Assembly: GCA_018262195.1 (NCBI GenBank)
Contig: JAGTRS010000008.1
Location: forward strand, 1-64,000
DNA length: 64,000 bases
Direction: 5' to 3'
DNA from: Pseudomonadota bacterium
GTDB lineage: Bacteria > Pseudomonadota > Gammaproteobacteria > Burkholderiales > Rhodocyclaceae
Positions 4,258-63,855 of this stretch are shown here, one piece after another. The position numbers and the translations under genes are program-made. Position 1 is the first letter of the stretch, and every line of letters begins with the position of its first letter. Under the pieces are notes generated by a model. That model was given only the letters and a program-made list of their open reading frames with translations, made no database searches and was not told the DNA's origin.

Positions 4258-4290
4258 TTGAAATCACGCCAGCCATTGGCGTGATTTCAA
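4258..4290 (+). terminator. Long hairpin after dbpA, probable terminator
   Basis: TTGAAATCACGCCA pairs perfectly with TGGCGTGATTTCAA (14-bp stem, loop GCCAT). It begins 6 bp after the dbpA stop, between convergent genes, so it could stop transcription from both sides. The T run is weak (ATTTT), and the right arm merges into a dispersed repeat copy. Confidence 0.6.
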
Positions 4291-4319
4291 TTTTGGCCAT
4301 TTTTTCCGGTTGACCGTGG
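4285..4319 (+). repeat. Dispersed intergenic repeat, copy 2
   Basis: Reads TTTCAATTTTGGCCATTT then TTTCCGGTTGACCGTGG, close to the family consensus. It lies in the convergent gap between dbpA and the MipA-like gene. Confidence 0.75.
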
Positions 4320-4353
4320 AAGTCGCTTCGCGTCGCTTTCCCCCGCTAACTAC

Positions 4354-5160
4354 CTAGAATTCATACGATACGGTGGCGACACCGGTGACCGACGTCGCTT
4401 GGCGGGTCAGCGGACTGTCCTTGGCATCGCCTTGCAGGCTGCTGACCGAGAGGGTGCCTAGGATCGCCACGCTCGGTGTGATTTGATAGCTCAGCGCGGC
4501 GTTGGCGCGAACGTCACGCAGGCCGAATCCCGGGCGGTAAGCCGAGTAGCCACTCGACGCAGACTGGGCTGCGGTAACGCCAAAATAGGACTGCATGTAG
4601 TCCTCGTTGGCCAGCGTCATGCTGGCGCCGAAACCGAGGCGCCACAGCGGGGACAACTTCGTCGAATAGCCCGCACCGAGATCGATGACCATCCCCGCGC
4701 TGTCATTGCCCGAGCCGTAACGCAGCGACGAGGTCAGGGTGATTTCCTTGTTGAGCGAGTAGTTCAGGAAGGCACCCAGCTCCGGCTTCGGGTCGATATC
4801 GCCCATGCCGCGCAGCGCATCCGAACGGCTCTCGTCGCGCCCGAAATCAGCGGTGACGCGCAGGCCATACTGCAATTCCCGAGTCTGGCCAAAATTGTAG
4901 CCGATGCCATTGCGGGTGCCGGCAAACCAGCCGTTTCGCCATTGATAGTCGAGCCCCGGCAGAACCAGCGTTCGCCGTTCGTCGGCGCCCTGATAAGCCA
5001 TGCCGGCAATGACGGCCAGCCCGGCGGAGCCACGATCCTTGTCAGTAGCGCCGCCAGTCAGGCGAACGGCATCAAAGGCCTGGGCAAATGCATTGGGGGC
5101 CGCGAGCGAAAGCAGTACGATCACGGCAAGGCCTTTCAGTAAATGGAAAGGTATTTTCAT
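4354..5160 (-). CDS. MipA/OmpV family outer membrane protein
   Basis: A 268-residue predicted outer membrane beta-barrel. It has an N-terminal signal peptide (charged start, hydrophobic run, cleavage near AFAQA at 25-29), alternating amphipathic strands, and a C-terminal aromatic residue (VATVSYEF) as outer membrane proteins need for BAM recognition. The pattern of strands and the GAxYxTKLSPLWRLGFGASM region resemble MipA/OmpV. MipA is known to scaffold MltA and PBP1B in E. coli, but most homologues have no proven role. The start codon overlaps the end of the ABC1 kinase gene by 4 bp, so it is the last gene of that minus-strand operon. Confidence 0.8.
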   Translation of the reverse strand: MKIPFHLLKGLAVIVLLSLAAPNAFAQAFDAVRLTGGATDKDRGSAGLAVIAGMAYQGADERRTLVLPGLDYQWRNGWFAGTRNGIGYNFGQTRELQYGLRVTADFGRDESRSDALRGMGDIDPKPELGAFLNYSLNKEITLTSSLRYGSGNDSAGMVIDLGAGYSTKLSPLWRLGFGASMTLANEDYMQSYFGVTAAQSASSGYSAYRPGFGLRDVRANAALSYQITPSVAILGTLSVSSLQGDAKDSPLTRQATSVTGVATVSYEF

Positions 5161-6542
5161 GGGGACTCCGCTGGGAAATGACTGGCTGTTAAATTGGATC
5201 GAGGCTGGATTGCGTCCGGGCTAAAACCGCTTGCCCCGGCCACTTCCTGCATGTTGACGCGGGCTTTCAATCGAGCCGCCAGCAAATAAAGTCCGCCCAG
5301 CTTGCGGTGCAAAAAAAGCGCATCGGCCGGCGGGGTGTGCCAGAAATCGCGATCCATACCGAGCACCATGCCGGCGTCGCGTATCCGTACGCCGAGGTCG
5401 GATGTGCCGAAATCGTATTCGCCCATGTGGCCGAGTGGTTCGCAAGCCAGCGCAAAAATGTCGAGCACGGCCTGGCGCTGGCCTTCCTTGATGTCCTGCT
5501 GGAAGTAACCGATGGCCACGGCGGCCTCGTTCATGCCAGGCCGGTCGTTGCGCATGGCGCAGGCCATCAGTTGCCGATAGCTGTCGACCATCGCCGCCGG
5601 ATAGGCGCGGGTGGCGCCGAAGTCGAGCAGGATCAGCTGTTGCGATGCGGCGGCATAGCGATAATTGGCAAAGTTCGGGTCGGTCTGGATCAGCCGGAAT
5701 TCGAAGATTTCGCGAAACAGCAGGCGGAATAGCTGGCTTACGAGGCGATCGCGTTCAAGCTGCGGCAGGTGGCAGAGGCTCTCCACTGGCTCGCCATCGA
5801 GGCGCGTCATGGCTAGGATGTTTTCCGTCGTCAGATCGTCGTGCATTTCCGGTACCAGAAATTCGTCAGCCCCGGCCAGCAGGCTGGAAAACTGCATCAT
5901 GCTGGCACCTTCGCGGCGGTAGTCGGCCTCGGCGTGCAACTGCTGTTTCGCTTCGTCGAGCAGTGGCTTGATATCCAGCGACTTCGGCAGCAAGCCGGAA
6001 ACGCGGAGGAGGGTGGCAACGTTGTCGACATCACTGTCGATGCTGCGGCGGATGCCGGGGTACTGGATTTTGACTGCGATTTTTCGCCCATCCTTGCGCT
6101 CCCCGAAATGCACCTGGCCGATCGAGGCCGCCGCCATCGGGGTAAAGGAGAACTGCTCGAAATGGCGATCCCAACCTTCTCCCCAGTTGGCGTTAAGGGC
6201 GGCGACGACCTGGCTCATTGGCATCGGGATGGCATCGGCGCGAAGCCGGGAGAGGATTTCTGCCAATTCCGGCGGCAACAGTTCGCCGGCATCCATCGAC
6301 AGCAGCTGCCCGACCTTCATCGCTGCGCCGCGCAGTTGCGCCAGTTGATCGGCCACGCGGCGGGCATTGGCCGGTGTCAGCAGCAGTTGATGCATTTGCG
6401 GCCGCTTGCCCTGGGCAAACTGCCGTGCGCCCTCGGCCAGCATGTTGCCGGCCACCCCGCCGGCCAGAGAACCAAGCCGGGCCAGGCGCGACCAGCGACC
6501 GTGGGGAACAGCCGAGGACTTCGTTACCGGCTCATCGGCCAT
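5157..6542 (-). CDS. ABC1/AarF/UbiB-family atypical kinase
   Basis: A 461-residue ABC1 (ADCK/UbiB-like) protein kinase-like ATPase. The diagnostic KxGQ motif is K76-Q79 (AAMKVGQLLSMD), followed by the Ala-rich loop AAASIGQVH, the VAIK-like AVKIQYPG lysine, and a DFG motif (LLDFGATRAY). Family members support ubiquinone biosynthesis or lipid extraction. The C-terminal membrane helices of true UbiB are not evident, so this is probably a paralogue. The start at 6542 was chosen because a GGGAAG site precedes it and upstream residues read like the frame-shifted neighbour; it overlaps that gene by 11 bp. Confidence 0.85.
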   Translation of the reverse strand: MADEPVTKSSAVPHGRWSRLARLGSLAGGVAGNMLAEGARQFAQGKRPQMHQLLLTPANARRVADQLAQLRGAAMKVGQLLSMDAGELLPPELAEILSRLRADAIPMPMSQVVAALNANWGEGWDRHFEQFSFTPMAAASIGQVHFGERKDGRKIAVKIQYPGIRRSIDSDVDNVATLLRVSGLLPKSLDIKPLLDEAKQQLHAEADYRREGASMMQFSSLLAGADEFLVPEMHDDLTTENILAMTRLDGEPVESLCHLPQLERDRLVSQLFRLLFREIFEFRLIQTDPNFANYRYAAASQQLILLDFGATRAYPAAMVDSYRQLMACAMRNDRPGMNEAAVAIGYFQQDIKEGQRQAVLDIFALACEPLGHMGEYDFGTSDLGVRIRDAGMVLGMDRDFWHTPPADALFLHRKLGGLYLLAARLKARVNMQEVAGASGFSPDAIQPRSNLTASHFPAESP

Positions 6543-55767: not shown

Positions 55768-57210
55768 TCAGCCACCCGGTCCGCAATCCATGCCTTGATC
55801 GCTCACCGTCGAACCGGCGTCCAGTTGATGCTTCACGTCACGCAAGGCAGTCCGCAAGCCTTCTTGAATAACCGGATGGTAGAAGGGCATTTCCAGCATC
55901 TCATCGACCGTCATGGGTTTTTGCGCCGCCCAGGCGAGCAGATGGCCGATGTGCTCGGCATCCGGGCCGAACATTTCGGCACCCAGAAACAAGCCGCTGT
56001 TCAGCTCGGCATAGACTTTGAGCATGCCCTTGTTGTGCAGCATGACCCGGCTGCGTCCCTGGTCCTCGAACGAAGCACAGCCTGTCGCAAAGCGGCCCTG
56101 AAAGTGTTGGTTCAGCGTTTTCAGGGGGATGCCGGCGGAGGCGACTTGCGGGTCGCAGAAGACGATGGCAAGTGGTGTGCGGCGCAGGCCGGGAACGACG
56201 TTGGGATAGCGCCCGGCATTGTCGCCGGCAATGCGCCCCTGGTCGGCAGCTTCATGCAGCAGGGGAATATCGTTGCTGGCATCACCGGCAATAAAGATCG
56301 TGCTCTCGCCGCATTGCAGCGTGTAGCGGTCAAACAGCGGTACGCCGCGGTCATCCAGCTGCAGTCCGGAGTTTTCCAGAGCCAGTCCGGCAAGCTCGGG
56401 TGCCCGACCGGTCGCCGCCAGCACGTAGTCGAATTCTTCGGTGATCTGAGTGCCGTCCTTGTGCTGGTAACTTACCGCAACGCCGGTTGCCGTTTCGCTG
56501 ACCGATTCCACTTTGGCATCTGCATCGAGATAAAACTCGTCATTGAAAATCTTGTTCGCGTAGTCACGAATGCCGGGGTCGCGAATGCCCGCCAGTCCGC
56601 CGCCGATACCGAACATCTTGACCGCGACGCCCAAGCGGCTCATCGACTGCCCCAATTCAATGCCGAGCGGCCCGGTCCCGAAAACCGCCATGCTTTTCGG
56701 CAGGGTCGGCAAATCAAAAATGGTCTCGCTGGTCAGCAAGTGTTTGTCCAGGTCTTGCAGCAATGGCGGTAGAGTGGGCTTGCTGCCGGTGGCGATGATC
56801 ATGCGGCGGGCGTGAATCAACTGGCCCTTGGGCGTCACCAGCGTATTGGCATCCTGAAAACTGACCTTGGCCGTCCACCGGACGCCGCTCGGCATGGCAT
56901 CGACTGAGGCGAGGACGAATCCGACAAAACGATCGCGTTCGCGCTGTACCCGCGCCATCACCGCCGGTCCGTCGACCACGAGGTCCGTGGCCTGTATGCC
57001 GAAGCGATCGGCATGGCGTGCCTGGTGCGCGACTTCGGCCGCCGCAATCAACAGTTTGCTCGGCATGCAGCCGTCACGGGCGCATGTCGTTCCGTAGTCG
57101 CCACCTTCGATGAGCAGGATCGATTGGGTATGGGCCCGGGCGCTCAGATAGGCCGCCATTCCGGCAGTGCCGGAACCGATGATGGCGACATCGACATGGA
57201 TCGGCGTCAT
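55768..57210 (-). CDS. Dihydrolipoyl dehydrogenase-like disulfide reductase
   Basis: A 480-residue FAD/NAD(P)H flavoprotein of the glutathione reductase family. FAD motif IIGSGTAGMAAY, redox disulfide Cys43/Cys48 (TTCARDGCMPSK), NAD motif VFGTGPLGIELGQ, FAD motif II FIAGDAS, and the C-terminal His-Glu pair HPVIQEGL. No 2-oxoacid dehydrogenase genes lie near. It overlaps the Prx-Grx gene by 4 bp (ATGA), so it may act as reductase for that peroxidase instead of in a dehydrogenase complex; this is inference. Confidence 0.88.
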   Translation of the reverse strand: MTPIHVDVAIIGSGTAGMAAYLSARAHTQSILLIEGGDYGTTCARDGCMPSKLLIAAAEVAHQARHADRFGIQATDLVVDGPAVMARVQRERDRFVGFVLASVDAMPSGVRWTAKVSFQDANTLVTPKGQLIHARRMIIATGSKPTLPPLLQDLDKHLLTSETIFDLPTLPKSMAVFGTGPLGIELGQSMSRLGVAVKMFGIGGGLAGIRDPGIRDYANKIFNDEFYLDADAKVESVSETATGVAVSYQHKDGTQITEEFDYVLAATGRAPELAGLALENSGLQLDDRGVPLFDRYTLQCGESTIFIAGDASNDIPLLHEAADQGRIAGDNAGRYPNVVPGLRRTPLAIVFCDPQVASAGIPLKTLNQHFQGRFATGCASFEDQGRSRVMLHNKGMLKVYAELNSGLFLGAEMFGPDAEHIGHLLAWAAQKPMTVDEMLEMPFYHPVIQEGLRTALRDVKHQLDAGSTVSDQGMDCGPGG

Positions 57211-57947
57211 TTGGCCTTGGCCAGCCAGACCGTCAGTTCGTCGGCGCCGCCGATGTGTTTGCCGTCGATGAAGACCTGCGGCGTCGTGCCCTCGCCGCTC
57301 ACTGCCTGCAGCGAGCTGTAGCTGACGCCGTTACTGCCGAGTTCGATTTCCTCGAAGCGATCGCCCTTTTTGTTCAGCATTTCGCGGGCGCGGGCGCAGT
57401 GCGGGCATCCCGGCTTGCTGAAGAAGGTGATCCTGGGTGGCAGCACCGCTTTCGGGTTGATGTAACCGAGCATCGTATCGGCATCGGAAACCTTGAAAGG
57501 ATCACCCGGCCCTTCCGCCTCGATGAACATTTTTTCAATCAGCCCATCCTTGACCAGCATCGAATAACGCCAGCTCCGTTTGCCCAGACCGATTTCGGAC
57601 TTGTCGACCAGCATCCCCATGCCGGCGCTGAATTCGCCATTGCCATCGGGCAGGAAGTAGACGCTTTCGGCTTTTTGGGCGGTTTGCCAGGTTTCCATAA
57701 CGAATGGATCATTAACGGCCAGACAGATCACGCTATCGACCCCATTCTCCTTCAGCGTCCCGGCCAGCTCGTTGTAGCGCGGCAGGTGCATGTTCGAACA
57801 GGTCGGCGTAAAGGCGCCCGGCAGGGCAAAGAGCACGACAGTCTTGCCGGTGAAGAGGGCGTCGCTGGTGACCTTTTCCCAAGCCCCATTGATCCTGATC
57901 GGAAAAGTGACTTTGGGGACCTGCTGACCTTCTTGTGACTTGAGCAT
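57207..57947 (-). CDS. Peroxiredoxin-glutaredoxin fusion (Prx5 type)
   Basis: A 246-residue hybrid peroxidase. The Prx5 domain (1-165) has peroxidatic Cys50 in PGAFTPTCS; a glutaredoxin domain follows (about 170-246) with active site CPHC (181-184) and TTPQVFIDGKHIGGADEL. Such fusions reduce peroxides with glutathione. First gene of a two-gene unit with the disulfide reductase; no OxyR site was identified. Confidence 0.94.
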   Translation of the reverse strand: MLKSQEGQQVPKVTFPIRINGAWEKVTSDALFTGKTVVLFALPGAFTPTCSNMHLPRYNELAGTLKENGVDSVICLAVNDPFVMETWQTAQKAESVYFLPDGNGEFSAGMGMLVDKSEIGLGKRSWRYSMLVKDGLIEKMFIEAEGPGDPFKVSDADTMLGYINPKAVLPPRITFFSKPGCPHCARAREMLNKKGDRFEEIELGSNGVSYSSLQAVSGEGTTPQVFIDGKHIGGADELTVWLAKAK

Positions 57948-59123: not shown

Positions 59124-59795
59124 ATGAAATACGCAGTGAATGCCTTCAACTGCCAGGCAACATCGACAAGTGGTTTCAACGTGCCTGACCAGGGTGAACG
59201 GCTGCAACACCACGTTCCCGAGAATGGGCGGGACAAACTTGCCTATCTGTTCGTCAAATTCCTGCGCTTTTTTGCAGACAGCTTTTTTGCCAGACGCTAT
59301 GGCCATCGCGCCGTTGTTCTGGAAACCGTCGCCGGGGTACCTGGCATGGTCGGCGGTTCGCTCCAGCACCTGAAATCGCTGCGCCGCATGGAATCTGATC
59401 AGGGCTGGATCCGCACCCTATTGGACGAAGCAGAAAACGAGCGCATGCATTTGATGACCTTCATTACCATTGCCCGGCCATCGCGGTTTGAACGCCTGCT
59501 GATCCTGCTCGTTCAAGGTGCGTTTTACAATTTCTACTTCCTGCTTTATCTGGTCTCTCCGGCAACGGCACATCGTGTCGTGGGGTATCTGGAGGAAGAA
59601 GCAGTCACCAGCTACACGACCTATCTGGCAGGCGTGGACAACGGCACCTACGCCAATGTCCCGGCCCCCGCAATCGCCATCGATTACTGGCAGCTGGCGG
59701 CTGACGCACGCTTGCGCGAGGTCATCATTGCAGTTCGAGCCGACGAGGCAAAGCATCGCGATGCCAATCATCAATTCGCTGACGATTTGACTTGA
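59124..59795 (+). CDS. Alternative oxidase (AOX)
   Basis: A 223-residue membrane-bound ubiquinol oxidase that reduces O2 without pumping protons. Di-iron ligands: Glu67 (VVLETVAG), Glu106/His109 (EAENERMHL), Glu158 region ([10 protein letters not shown]), Glu208/His211 ([12 protein letters not shown]). Hydrophobic helices near 65-80 and 125-145 insert in one leaflet. The start is uncertain: AGGAG (59106-59110) fits better an ATG at 59117 that opens a separate 23-codon frame overlapping this start. Bacterial AOX genes are known but uncommon. Confidence 0.9.
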
Positions 59796-59878: not shown

Positions 59879-61192
59879 TCAGCCTATCAAACTACTCTCC
59901 GGGAGCGCAGAGACCAGCACTTTGTCGACCCGGTTCCCATCCATGTCCATAACCTCGAAACGCCAACCTAACGCGCAAAAGTGATCGGTCGGTGCTGGAA
60001 TGCGGCCAAGGGTGTGCATGATAAAACCGCCCAGCGTGTGAAAGCCGCGCTCATCTTCACCGGGAAGATCATCGTCAATATCGAGGACTGACTTCAGGCG
60101 TTCCACGCCAACATCGCCATCTACAAGCCATGAACCATCCTCCCGTTGCAGCATGTCACGATCCTCCGGCGCCTCAGGCACCGATAGTTCGCCTACGATG
60201 GAAGCCAGAACGTCCGTCAGCGTAACCAGACCTTGCACATCGCCATATTCATCAACGATTAACGCAAACTGCAGGCGAGCATGGCGGAAGCTTTCAAGCA
60301 GTTGCGTCGTGGTCACTGTTTCCGGCACGTATAGCGGTGGATGCAATACCGACTCGACGTCAGCCGAAGTGATGCAGTGGCCGGGAAGTGCCTTCTTGAG
60401 CAAATCGCCGGTTTGCAGGATGCCAAGCACATGATCCAGTCCATCACGACAAACCACGAGACGGGAGTATTCCGTGTCGACGATGCGTTGGCGGACGGTT
60501 TCCTCGTCCTCATCAAGGTCCACAACAAACATTTCGCGACGTGGCGTCATGATCGCGGCGATGCGCTGTTCGTCGAGGCGTAGCACGTTGGAGACGAGTT
60601 CCTGCTCGCTCTCGTGAAATACCCCGGCCTCCGCGCCTTGTTCCATCAGCACGTTGATCTCGTCGTTGGTGACCGGTTGTTCTTCTTTGGTGCGGGCACC
60701 GAGAAGACGCAGAATGGCCGAACAGGAACTCGACAGGATGACGACCAGCGGGTGGGTGAAGCGGGCCAAGACGATCATCGGCCGGGCAATCAATGATGCA
60801 ATGCCTTCCGGGGCGAGCATGGCCAGGCGTTTTGGGACCAGTTCGCCAACCACAACGGAAAAATAGGTCAGGCAGACCACCGTGATCGTGAGCGCCACTG
60901 TTTTTGCGTGGGGTTCGAGAAGTGGGATGGTCGCAAACCACTCCGCTAGCGGGTCGGCGATAGCCGCTTCGCCGATGGCGCCGCTAAGGATGCCAACCGA
61001 GGTGATGCCAACCTGGATGGTTGAAAAGAAACTGGATGGTTCCTGATGCAAATCGAGGGCCGCTTTGGCACCCAGGCTACCGTCATCAGCCAGATTCTGG
61101 AGTCTGGACTTGCGGGACGAAACGACAGCAATCTCGGACATGGCGAATAGACCATTGACGAGAATAAGTACAAAGATTAGCGCTATATCCAT
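59879..61192 (-). CDS. CNNM/CorC family protein with CBS pair (hemolysin-like)
   Basis: A 437-residue protein with an N-terminal CNNM (DUF21) membrane domain (about 1-190, GITSVGILSGAIGEAAIADPL), a cytosolic CBS pair (about 210-330, VMTPR-like IMTPRREMFVVD, VDEYGDVQGLVTLTDVLASIVGE) and a C-terminal CorC_HlyC domain. Family members are linked to Mg2+/Co2+ transport; the hemolysin label is historical. ATG at 61192 chosen, since the frame above lacks family similarity. Confidence 0.9.
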   Translation of the reverse strand: MDIALIFVLILVNGLFAMSEIAVVSSRKSRLQNLADDGSLGAKAALDLHQEPSSFFSTIQVGITSVGILSGAIGEAAIADPLAEWFATIPLLEPHAKTVALTITVVCLTYFSVVVGELVPKRLAMLAPEGIASLIARPMIVLARFTHPLVVILSSSCSAILRLLGARTKEEQPVTNDEINVLMEQGAEAGVFHESEQELVSNVLRLDEQRIAAIMTPRREMFVVDLDEDEETVRQRIVDTEYSRLVVCRDGLDHVLGILQTGDLLKKALPGHCITSADVESVLHPPLYVPETVTTTQLLESFRHARLQFALIVDEYGDVQGLVTLTDVLASIVGELSVPEAPEDRDMLQREDGSWLVDGDVGVERLKSVLDIDDDLPGEDERGFHTLGGFIMHTLGRIPAPTDHFCALGWRFEVMDMDGNRVDKVLVSALPESSLIG

Positions 61193-61587
61193 GTGGGAAG
61201 TCGCCCCTTGCCAATTGGCATGCGACTTCGGTGTTGAGGAGTGCCAGATTGTAGCAGGGTAGGAAATGCCAATAGGGGAGGGCACCATCTTCCGTTGAAC
61301 AATTGATACCCTGCAATTTTGAAAACGTCGGCTAGGCAGCAAAGTGGTTCAATCAAGCGTTATTCCCGCGAAAGCGTGAATCCACGAACCACGTATTTAT
61401 TGAGATTAACGTCCTTCGCACCACGACAAACGTCCACTAACTGAAGATCCTGAACCTGCCGGCACTTGGTGGCCATCAACTTCTTCCGGTCAATCCTGGG
61501 TGCGCGCGACCCCGCCGAGGCGGGGCCGTGCGAGATCAGCGTGGTCTTTTTGAAACGTATTTCAATGGTGGCCCGGGTTGCCAAGTC
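61193..61587. other. Intergenic region with REP-like palindrome
   Basis: A 395-bp gap between minus-strand genes. ATTCCCGC-GAAA-GCGTGAAT at 61362-61381 is one base from the common proteobacterial ATTCCCGCGAAAGCGGGAAT palindromic repeat. GACCCCGCC-GAG-GCGGGGCC near 61510-61527 is a second hairpin, likely a stop signal after the cytochrome gene. A 74-codon minus frame (61360-61584) spans these hairpins and is not called. Confidence 0.5.
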
Positions 61588-63513
61588 CTATTTGTTGCGC
61601 AGCGCCTTCATTGCCTGGAACGGCCCGAACTGATGGCTTTCCTGTGGCAGCTTGTCGGCATACGGCGGATAGGGCGCGTCAACCGGTTTCTTCTCCAGTT
61701 TCGGGTAGTCCTTGTCCAGCCCGCTCATCTGTGGCCGCTTCATCGAACTGAGGTAGCCGGCGATATCGTAGGCATCCTCGTTGGTGATTGCCGGATGGTC
61801 CCCGGTGGCGCCAAGCGGCATGTTGCCTTGTATGAAGGCGGCGGTGGTCAGCAGCCGGTTCATGCCCGCGCCATTGTTGTAACTGCCGGCACCCCATAGC
61901 GCCGGGACGACATGGCTACCGGAACTGCCGGCCGACAGCGACTGATAACCGTTGCCGTCCTTGCCATGGCACGACATGCAGAATCGGTCGTAGGCCTGTT
62001 CGCCGTTTTTCACGTCGGCCTTGCGGTCAGGCCCTTCGTACGGCGGAGTGCCGAGGCCGGCCCCACCCTTGGGCAGGTCTTTCGACAACCAGTTCATGTA
62101 GGCGACCATTGCCTTCATCTCTCTGCCGTCGGCAGGTAGTTCCTTGCCGTTCAGGCTGCGCTCGAAACAACCGTTGATCCGCTGCTCAAGGCCCTGCACC
62201 TGGTCTTCGCGGCCGCGATATTGCGGGTATGCCTGACTGACACCCATCCAGGGAAGTCCCAATTGCTTGGTGCCGTTTTCAAGGTGACAACTCGTGCAGT
62301 TCAGGGTGTTTCCCGAGAACCGCATTTTCTTGTTCTTAACGTCGGGGCCGAGTTGCGCGTAGGTGTCGCTGAGCAGCAGTGCGCCGTAGCGCACCAGATC
62401 CCCGGCTTCGCCCGGCGGAACATCCTTCATCAGCGGTGGCGCCCAGGCGGTCGGAGATGCCTTTGCCTTCATGGGAGGCGCGCTGGTCAGCTTCTCATCG
62501 GCCAGCGTGGTCAGGAATCGGAGGATGTTGTTGATTTCTTCATCCTTCAGCTTCTTGTCCAGCTGCAGGTAAGCCATCTGGTCTACCGCTGCCGCCAGGT
62601 TGCTCACTGCGCCATCATGAAAATAGGGGGCGGTCAGGGTGACATTGCGTAAACCGGACGTCTTGAAGAGGTACTTGTCGCTTTCCAGTTTGGTGACCTT
62701 GAAGCGGCCCAGATCCTTGCGATTGGGGTAGGCATGGAAAACGCCGAGTTTCTGGTAGGTCGTGCCACCCAGGTTGGGGCCGTTGTGACATTGCACGCAG
62801 CCGACATTGATGAAGCTGCGCATCCCGTCCATTTCCAGCTTGGTGAGGGCTTGCTTGTCACCGTCAATGAAGCGGTCGAAGCGGCTCCGGGAAATCAGCG
62901 TCCGCTCGAAGGCGGCAACGGCCCTGGCAAAGTGGTCGAAGGTCACGGGATCCGGCTGGCCAGGGAAGGCCGCCTTGAAATCGGCGGCGTAATGACTGAT
63001 TTCCTTGAGTCGCTGCGCCACCGCTTCGCCATTGGCCATGCCCATTTCAATCGGGTTGAGCGGCGGGCCCTTGGCCTGCTCTTCGAGTGTTGTCGCACGT
63101 CCGTCCCAGAACTGCGCAATCTGGAAGCCGGCATTCAAGGTTGATGGATCGTTGCGGTCGCCGAATTTTCCTTCGGCACCCTTGCCGGTCTTCAAGTTGT
63201 CCGCGCCGGCGCCCTTGCCGTCCAGGGGATGGCAGGAGTTGCAGGATTGGGTCTTGTTGATGGAAATGGCCTTCTCGAAGTAGAGCTTCTTTCCCAGTGC
63301 AATCATGGCGGGCGTGTCGTGCTCACTCCCCGGCATGGCGGCGGGAAGTTTGCCGAAAATCGCTTGTGCCTGGGTCAATAGATCGCCATCGGGGGCGGTC
63401 TTTGCGGTGGCTTCGGCGGTCGCTGGCGAGATCAGGTTTCGCCCGAAATCCGAATAGCTCACGGCAATAAGCCCGGCCATCAGGATGAGGGATGTTCGTA
63501 ACTTCCGTTGCAT
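61588..63513 (-). CDS. Fusion of di-heme cytochrome c peroxidase and TsdA-type thiosulfate dehydrogenase
   Basis: A 641-residue periplasmic tetraheme protein. After a signal peptide comes a CcpA/MauG-like peroxidase (about 45-345) with heme sites CNSCH (91-95) and CVQCH (239-243) and TAPYFHDGAVSNL (295-306). Residues about 370-641 match TsdA: MRFSGNTLNCTSCHLENG, RINGC with the heme-ligand Cys449, CMSCH (512-516), LWGAGSYNNGAGMNRLL, NMPLG, KKPVDAPYPPYADK. TsdA interconverts thiosulfate and tetrathionate. GGAG precedes the ATG at 63513. No stop or frameshift separates the modules. The fusion could couple thiosulfate oxidation to peroxide reduction. Confidence 0.9.
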   Translation of the reverse strand: MQRKLRTSLILMAGLIAVSYSDFGRNLISPATAEATAKTAPDGDLLTQAQAIFGKLPAAMPGSEHDTPAMIALGKKLYFEKAISINKTQSCNSCHPLDGKGAGADNLKTGKGAEGKFGDRNDPSTLNAGFQIAQFWDGRATTLEEQAKGPPLNPIEMGMANGEAVAQRLKEISHYAADFKAAFPGQPDPVTFDHFARAVAAFERTLISRSRFDRFIDGDKQALTKLEMDGMRSFINVGCVQCHNGPNLGGTTYQKLGVFHAYPNRKDLGRFKVTKLESDKYLFKTSGLRNVTLTAPYFHDGAVSNLAAAVDQMAYLQLDKKLKDEEINNILRFLTTLADEKLTSAPPMKAKASPTAWAPPLMKDVPPGEAGDLVRYGALLLSDTYAQLGPDVKNKKMRFSGNTLNCTSCHLENGTKQLGLPWMGVSQAYPQYRGREDQVQGLEQRINGCFERSLNGKELPADGREMKAMVAYMNWLSKDLPKGGAGLGTPPYEGPDRKADVKNGEQAYDRFCMSCHGKDGNGYQSLSAGSSGSHVVPALWGAGSYNNGAGMNRLLTTAAFIQGNMPLGATGDHPAITNEDAYDIAGYLSSMKRPQMSGLDKDYPKLEKKPVDAPYPPYADKLPQESHQFGPFQAMKALRNK

Positions 63514-63855
63514 GATCAATACTCCTGTAGTTGAAGAAAAATCGGGGGATGGAGAGTGGTTGAGGCTTGGCAAGCGTCGCCAACGTCATGGCGTGGCGTG
63601 CCTGTCGCAGGCGCTTACCATGTACCTGGGGCGGCCTTTTTTCCGTTCGCTAGCACACTTAGGTAATCGATTGGCATGTATGCCGGCATGCTTGGCGGCG
63701 CTGCGCTCGACAAATGACAAGTCGCCTGGCCTTGCCTGTTTGGCAAGCCAAACAGTCGTTGCTGAACGGGGTGGTACATTGGTCCCGGTCGAGCGGATGC
63801 TTGCCGATTGGCTTTTGTTTTCCGGCCAGAACACCCTTCAGAAAAGAGATCCAAC
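63514..63855. other. Divergent control region with perfect palindrome
   Basis: A 342-bp gap between the cytochrome fusion (minus) and the DUF3616-like gene (plus). An 82-codon minus frame at 63586-63834 has no family features and is not called. CTGTTTGGC-AA-GCCAAACAG at 63736-63755 is a perfect 9-bp dyad and a good operator candidate. No terminator or RNA gene seen. Confidence 0.5.

Follow-up and report, generated by a model that had tools for sequence, protein, structure and literature searches.

The window analysed here is a 64,000-nucleotide stretch of a Rhodocyclaceae contig. On its minus strand lies a single open frame of 641 residues that begins with ATG and whose translation is made up of two complete halves, a di-heme cytochrome c peroxidase (CCP) and then a di-heme TsdA. 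The original prediction had claimed an uninterrupted one-gene fusion of these two enzymes, and the frame, Pfam and PDB matches bear it out. The domain search it called for found CCP_MauG at residues 69-221 (E 9.6e-54, 182.5 bits against a curated cut-off of 25.6), SoxA-TsdA_cyt-c at residues 405-481 (E 5e-12) and Cytochrom_C at residues 501-592. The closest solved structure to residues 41-348 is the Neisseria gonorrhoeae CCP 6qkn (its residues 3-315, E 1.4e-73). For residues 358-596 it is the Allochromatium vinosum TsdA 4wqc (E 3.6e-45). Residues 338-623 also align to 226-505 of 5lo9 (E 2.2e-38), which we take to be the TsdBA fusion of Marichromatium purpuratum. The four predicted CxxCH sites are present, starting at residues 91, 239, 406 and 512, and so is Cys449.

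61588..63513, minus strand: CCP-TsdA fusion gene, 641 aa, stop codon included (frame, Pfam and PDB matches, at least 20 + 2 full-length homologues)
63522..63526, minus strand: AGGAG, likely ribosome-binding site, 8 bases 5' of the ATG (sequence reading)
63412..63513, minus strand: residues 1-34, signal-peptide-like N terminus, a hydrophobic core and then ATAEA (by sequence inspection)

From this N terminus we infer export of the fusion protein to the periplasm. The upstream neighbour of the gene appears divergent (locus L002). On the downstream side, after 245 bases and in the same orientation, comes a 487-aa frame (59879-61342) that is CBS/CorC-type by eye. The fusion gene may be its own transcription unit.

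The peroxidase half

Residue conservation was read from 26 aligned rows, counting only rows with letters at the column; the column of the P-heme distal His includes two more rows (L126 and L127).

62470..63393, minus strand: di-heme cytochrome c peroxidase half, residues 41-348 (6qkn match, CCP_MauG)
63229..63243, minus strand: P (peroxidatic) heme site CNSCH, residues 91-95; Cys and His invariant in 22/22 rows
63175..63177, minus strand: Ala113, at the position of the P-heme distal His (NgBCCP His75; 6qkn alignment)
63046..63108, minus strand: residues 136-156 with Trp136, Gln146 and Glu156 (NgBCCP Trp98, Gln108 and Glu118; 6qkn alignment)
62785..62799, minus strand: E (electron-transfer) heme site CVQCH, residues 239-243; Cys and His invariant in 24/24 rows
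62575..62577, minus strand: Met313, E-heme distal ligand (NgBCCP Met280; 6qkn alignment), kept in 24/24 rows

The roles of Trp98, Gln108, Glu118, His75 and Met280 are described for the N. gonorrhoeae enzyme, NgBCCP (PMC10094543, excerpt). Across the fusions Gln146 and Glu156 are each kept in 23/23 rows and Trp136 in 21/22, the exception being a Val in L049. A di-heme peroxidase half had been predicted. This holds for the heme sites, the Trp, Gln and Glu, and the Met, but not for the usual P-heme distal His. That column holds Ala in 21 of 22 rows and Ser in the other, and with the Ala of L126 and L127 it is Ala or Ser in 24/24 fusion rows. Heme-ligand loss among homologues, a worry of the prediction, thus affects this His (lost 24/24) and spares Cys449 (kept 25/25).

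In classical CCPs the P-heme distal His must leave before peroxide can bind (PMC10094543, excerpt). Its loss is therefore no argument against activity. With the His gone, the P-heme peroxide site of the fusion is probably always open and would need no reductive activation. A His in this column is also missing from L058-L062, the five standalone CCPs that the tree places nearest, so the loss seems older than the fusion. L058 and L059 have a His one residue after it.

The comparison with classical CCPs (N. gonorrhoeae, 6qkn/6fu3) is one of shared parts and one clear departure. The P and E heme sites, the Trp, Gln and Glu and the E-heme Met are all common to both, but the window fusion has Ala for the P-heme distal His and a TsdA at its C terminus. 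Judged by its residues, the peroxidase half is a member of the CCP family, but not of the classical reductively activated type. Its top NCBIfam matches are the MbnH and MauG models. Membership in either was rejected, as the scores fall far under the cut-offs (MauG 126.3 of 443.85 bits, MbnH 176.7 of 362.85 bits).

The TsdA half

61726..62442, minus strand: TsdA half, residues 358-596 (matches to 4wqc and 5lo9; SoxA-TsdA_cyt-c, Cytochrom_C)
62284..62298, minus strand: TsdA heme 1 site CTSCH, residues 406-410; Cys and His invariant in 25/25 rows
62167..62211, minus strand: residues 435-449 with Arg435, Arg445 and Cys449, the Arg pair and catalytic Cys96 of A. vinosum TsdA (AvTsdA; alignment)
61966..61980, minus strand: TsdA heme 2 site CMSCH, residues 512-516; Cys and His invariant in 25/25 rows
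61819..61824, minus strand: Asn564-Met565, heme 2 distal pair (AvTsdA Lys208-Met209, C. jejuni CjTsdA Asn254-Met255; alignment)

Cys96 and the Arg pair serve sulfur chemistry in A. vinosum TsdA (PMC6879331, excerpt). Their counterparts Cys449, Arg435 and Arg445 are each kept in 25/25 fusion rows. The TsdA enzymes of A. vinosum and C. jejuni share with this half the two c hemes in the same order, the catalytic Cys, the Arg pair and the heme 2 Met. They differ in that the window's TsdA sits behind a peroxidase, and its heme 2 pair is Asn-Met as in C. jejuni, whereas A. vinosum has Lys-Met. The claim that every TsdA hallmark is kept must be trimmed accordingly. The hemes, Cys449, the Arg pair and Met565 stand, but Asn564 replaces Lys208 of A. 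vinosum, as an Asn also does in C. jejuni. Met565 is found in 25/25 fusion rows and Asn564 in 24/25. The Asn-Met pair and the Ala or Ser at the P-heme distal position are two points that the original prediction did not contain.

The C. jejuni TsdA, whose heme 2 also bears Asn-Met, reduces tetrathionate in vivo and is biased to that direction (PMC5146829, excerpt). The shared pattern makes tetrathionate reduction a possible physiological direction of the TsdA half. It must be noted that Asn-Met is also present in 43/44 standalone TsdA rows, from which the contig-edge fragments L055 and L056 are excluded. We dropped it as a hallmark of the fusion for that reason, and for the same reason it tells little about the fusion's direction.

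Distribution

A survey of homologues, also suggested by the original prediction, found the same architecture in at least 20 other full-length single-frame copies among the matches listed in a scan of one genome per species. Two further full-length copies (L126 and L127) came from a Desulfobacterota genome sample. The homologues are about 51-84% identical to the window protein. The scan used short peptide patterns and covered the 80 matches listed, so the copy number is a lower bound. Besides full-length copies it gave two that run off their contigs (L045, L047), the three fragments L054-L056 and one copy whose frames are broken (L057).

These copies also settle whether the gene could be an assembly chimera or an accidental read-through. 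The window's genome bin has 9.95% contamination, and the broken frames of L057 could be taken in the same sense. Against this stand at least 22 other full-length one-frame copies, one of them in a genome of the same genus (G026), and an artefact is practically excluded. A missed stop between the modules, which the prediction had raised, is very unlikely with at least 22 single-frame copies in other assemblies.

The fusion is rare, scattered and centred on Desulfobacterota. Titles name Desulfobacterota families or genera for 12 of the 20 listed full-length copies: Desulfobulbus, Desulfosarcina cetonica, Desulfobulbaceae, Desulfobacteraceae, Desulfocapsaceae, Desulfuromonadaceae and Desulfarculaceae. 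The remaining titles are Deltaproteobacteria (2), Betaproteobacteria, Rhodocyclaceae, Proteobacteria, an uncultured sphingomonad, a Kiritimatiellae bin and "bacterium". Besides the window's genome itself, one of 100 relatives carries the fusion (G026, 84% identity). L033 probably comes from this genome, given the matching CCP positions, and the two were counted as one copy. In 369 genomes from the window's class the matches at E <= 1e-100 are the window and three standalone CCPs (frames of 332-340 aa). Within the phylum of Desulfosarcina 6 of 395 genomes have the fusion, and two of these are new. Plasmids gave 166 matching records, none with one place covering 80% of the fusion protein.

Phylogeny of the two halves

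The trees of the two halves differ in how well they resolve the fusions. In a 63-row tree of the CCP half, the 23 fusion rows form one clade with support of 99/98. A 56-row version that adds L126, L127 and the unfused pairs described below again places all 25 fusion rows in one clade (96/91). In a first tree of the TsdA half (69 rows) the fusions grouped at 81/90 with two non-fusion rows, L055 and L056, inside. L055 starts at a contig edge inside the end of a CCP, and the bin of L056 has another contig, L054, that ends in the same linker. We read both as cut fusions because of this contig edge and matching linker break. A second TsdA tree (62 rows), with these two dropped and the unfused pairs added, keeps 20 fusion rows together. 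The five deepest (L049, L053 and the group of L051, L126 and L127) have no firm place at the weakly supported base. The strongly supported branches require one change or more, and a single change, with the fusions kept together, is seen in 28% of 200 bootstrap trees. The first trees omit L003, L004, L054, L057 and matches aligned over fewer than 180 positions. Near-copies were also omitted, 11 from the 56-row CCP tree and 9 (plus L055 and L056) from the 62-row TsdA tree.

Over 21 fusion rows the identity matrices of the two halves correlate with r 0.95, a value that 0 of 2000 permutations reached, and 19 of the 21 have a linker stretch of 27 aa. An earlier wording, that both trees have one fusion event, was softened after the 62-row tree left its base weak. 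A single origin of the fusion is supported by the CCP half, and the TsdA half neither shows nor rejects it. Because of the trees and the unlike neighbourhoods, we argue that the window's group probably acquired the fusion horizontally.

Unfused tsdA-ccp pairs

Two Desulfobacterota genomes have tsdA and then ccp as separate adjacent genes, in the order opposite to the fusion (L128 and L142). In L128 a 279-aa di-heme TsdA (4386-5225) lies directly before the CCP frame (5167-6354), both on the plus strand, and the same genome also holds the fusion L046. The gene order of L142 (genome G614) is the same. The heme 2 pair of the unfused TsdA is Lys-Met, the A. vinosum pattern, in L128 and Asn-Met in L142. 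Both CCPs keep the P-heme distal His and group together at 100/99. In the 56-row CCP tree they fall outside the branch (99/93) of the fusions and their nearest CCPs. In our reading, the two enzymes were here brought together a second time, separately from the fusion.

As a control, TsdA loci were collected from the window's class: 44 matches in 40 of 369 genomes, of which 30 TsdA loci were kept, one of them the window itself. None of the other 29 has a CCP within its flanks (about 1.4 kb). At 17/29 loci an adjacent frame contains 2-3 CxxCH and is TsdB-like by position and heme count only. One of the 29 has 4 CxxCH in one frame.

Gene company

The gene neighbours of the fusion are not conserved overall. 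Stress genes lie near it at 6/24 loci versus 2/40 contig-start stretches, many of them short and from 20 genomes, a comparison biased by queries taken from the fusion loci themselves. Superoxide dismutases occur near the fusion in L035, AhpC in L049, and rubrerythrin (by eye) in L052 and L063. The neighbours in L042, from a Desulfobacteraceae bin, are a sulfur oxygenase reductase two genes before the fusion (4261-5142, PF07682, E 4.2e-145), DJ-1 and AhpC.

In the window, two genes of note lie within 4 kb of the fusion, one for a peroxiredoxin-glutaredoxin and one for an alternative oxidase. The alternative oxidase (59124-59795, plus strand, PF01786, E 6e-84), here in a bacterium, is encoded 1.8 kb away from the fusion. 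The peroxiredoxin-glutaredoxin hybrid (57207-57947, minus strand) overlaps a pyridine nucleotide-disulfide oxidoreductase (55768-57210, minus strand), which may serve as its reductase. L042 also has an oxidoreductase of these Pfam families close to its fusion.

One gene row including the fusion is common to L051 (1673-8940), L126 (4626-11996) and L127 (4601-11987). It consists of a TsdA-like protein, a bd-oxidase-I-like protein, a second membrane cytochrome, a DsrE-like protein, the CCP-TsdA fusion and a solute-binding protein. In the bd-oxidase-like membrane protein, the first part is similar to subunit I of bd oxidase (5doq, E 7.6e-10, as tested with the L126 protein) and the C terminus is a cytochrome c. 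The row is possibly a thiosulfate-linked oxidase.

Among the fusion genomes, many of which are draft bins, the fusion is the only SoxA-TsdA_cyt-c match over cut-off in 14/22 and the only CCP_MauG match in 11/22. The window's genome has another CCP and a SoxA besides it. DsrA is over cut-off in 13/20 fusion genomes, which is why many of the hosts look like anaerobes.

Proposed mechanism and alternatives

Fusions of either enzyme to an electron partner are known. The TsdBA fusion of M. purpuratum also has a C-terminal TsdA with a di-heme partner in front, but there the partner is the electron acceptor TsdB and here it is a CCP. The tri-heme YhjA, a quinol peroxidase, likewise joins a CCP to an electron-feeding heme domain and needs no reductive activation (PMC10301912, excerpt). 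Its extra domain is N-terminal, mono-heme and quinol-fed, in contrast to that of the window fusion, which is C-terminal, di-heme and itself an enzyme. Methylophaga thiooxydans has a one-gene fusion of a SCO1 and a MauG-type CCP domain near sulfur genes, but the partner is not TsdA and the genome is reported to lack TsdA (PMC6548844, excerpt). A prior description of a CCP-TsdA fusion was not found in the open-licence papers searched, PMC6879331 among them, in agreement with the original prediction. Those papers gave no description of a thiosulfate:hydrogen-peroxide oxidoreductase activity either.

In TsdBA the fused partner TsdB is the electron acceptor of TsdA (PMC6879331, excerpt). The thiosulfate/tetrathionate couple is at +198 mV (PMC9562282, excerpt). 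The fusion has a CCP in the acceptor's place. The H2O2/H2O potential is far above that of thiosulfate/tetrathionate, so internal flow from thiosulfate to H2O2 would be favoured. We infer two activities coupled by transfer between the domains, with a protective role for the host. The proposed overall reaction is 2 S2O3(2-) + H2O2 + 2 H+ -> S4O6(2-) + 2 H2O. The TsdA half would oxidise thiosulfate at heme 1, which is ligated by Cys449 and His, and pass the electrons to its His/Met heme 2. From there they would move on to the CCP half, first to its His/Met E heme and then, by way of Trp136, to the P heme. There H2O2 would be split with the aid of Glu156 and Gln146, and without a distal His it would bind without reductive activation. 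We put the chance that the fusion is such a soluble periplasmic four-heme thiosulfate:H2O2 oxidoreductase with direct coupling at about even.

The case starts from one frame, a conserved fusion, full modules with the catalytic residues of both kept, and tsdA-ccp neighbours that exist unfused elsewhere. We also count for it the CCP-half clade, the correlated halves, the 0/29 control loci, genomes where the fusion is the sole TsdA-type or CCP_MauG match, and fitting neighbours at single loci (L042, L035, L051, L126, L127). Coupling of peroxide to thiosulfate gains support beyond the original prediction from 22 copies, two unfused pairs and the precedents of TsdBA and YhjA. Counted against it are Asn-Met at heme 2, DsrA in 13/20 hosts, the weak base of the TsdA tree, the unconserved gene context, and the other CCP and SoxA in the window's genome.

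The main rival to internal electron flow is a two-headed terminal reductase fed from outside. One can imagine that both halves draw on the same periplasmic cytochrome pool. The P heme would then reduce H2O2, TsdA heme 1 would reduce tetrathionate, and the fusion would do no more than share a docking site. The C. jejuni pattern at heme 2 fits this, the DsrA hosts could respire tetrathionate, and the electron donors of classical CCPs are small cytochromes or copper proteins (PMC10301912, excerpt). However, the unfused TsdA of L128 has Lys-Met (but that of L142 Asn-Met), the known fusion partner of TsdA is its electron acceptor, and the bd-oxidase-like protein in the L051, L126 and L127 row points to an oxidative setting. 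We regard external feeding of both halves as possible but unlikely. A further step down in probability, and a poor prospect in our view, is that the TsdA half takes no part in sulfur chemistry and only docks, or passes on, the electrons that another donor supplies for the peroxidase. YhjA-type peroxidases bear a fused heme domain of this kind (PMC10301912, excerpt), but Cys449, Arg435 and Arg445, the residues of sulfur chemistry in TsdA, are kept in 25/25 rows. We rate equally low the idea that the CCP half acts in a MauG-like way on its own partner, for example by maturing or re-oxidising the TsdA active site, and that bulk peroxide removal is not its job. The P heme without a distal His agrees with it, the CCP_MauG family includes modifying enzymes, and MbnH and MauG are the top NCBIfam models. 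Yet those scores are far below cut-off, the E-heme Met is present in 24/24 rows as in peroxidases, and TsdA enzymes that are not fused are active with no partner of this kind (PMC5146829 and PMC6879331, excerpts).

A broader form of the direct-coupling reading, held tentatively and at somewhat less than an even chance, is that sulfate reducers and some sulfur-cycling proteobacteria have a dedicated thiosulfate:H2O2 oxidoreductase that uses available thiosulfate to remove peroxide in the periplasm and bypasses the respiratory chain. The pairing would have arisen at least 2 times, as the fusion and as the unfused operon, whose CCPs belong to another branch. If direct coupling is true, a single protein can remove peroxide with electrons from an inorganic sulfur compound and needs no NADH, quinol or cytochrome pool. 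In sediments it would connect oxygen stress with the formation of tetrathionate, and it would be a candidate route by which anaerobes at oxic borders handle periplasmic H2O2. The fusion also lends itself to the study of electron transfer between two di-heme enzymes that are each well known, and its family offers a peroxidatic heme that has lost the gating histidine.

Related loci

A wide adjacency of CCP and SoxA/TsdA was considered and rejected. It appeared in 10 of 20 Desulfobacterota genomes picked for a SoxA-TsdA_cyt-c match, and only L142 is a true TsdA-CCP pair. These 20, of 51 genomes with such a match, were the ones searched for CCP, so the count of unfused pairs is a lower bound.

The other nine loci look like a different, recurrent Desulfobacterota operon, made up of a CCP, a calcineurin-like phosphoesterase with a Tat-like signal and a mono-heme SoxA-like cytochrome. 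It is whole in L133 (4200-7534), L137 (4221-6884) and L139 (4102-7004), and partial with poor gene calls in L134-L136, L138, L140 and L141. Its cytochrome has SCDMCHP in three proteins (L133, L137, L140) and is not a TsdA.

In a Mariniphaga bin the two halves are on two contigs, L054 (5476-6726) and L056 (84-917), both breaking in the same linker. The contig end of L054 has repeat-like sequence. L060, on a contig titled Akkermansia muciniphila, is a CCP 53% identical to the CCP half of the fusion; our guess is that this label may be a binning error.
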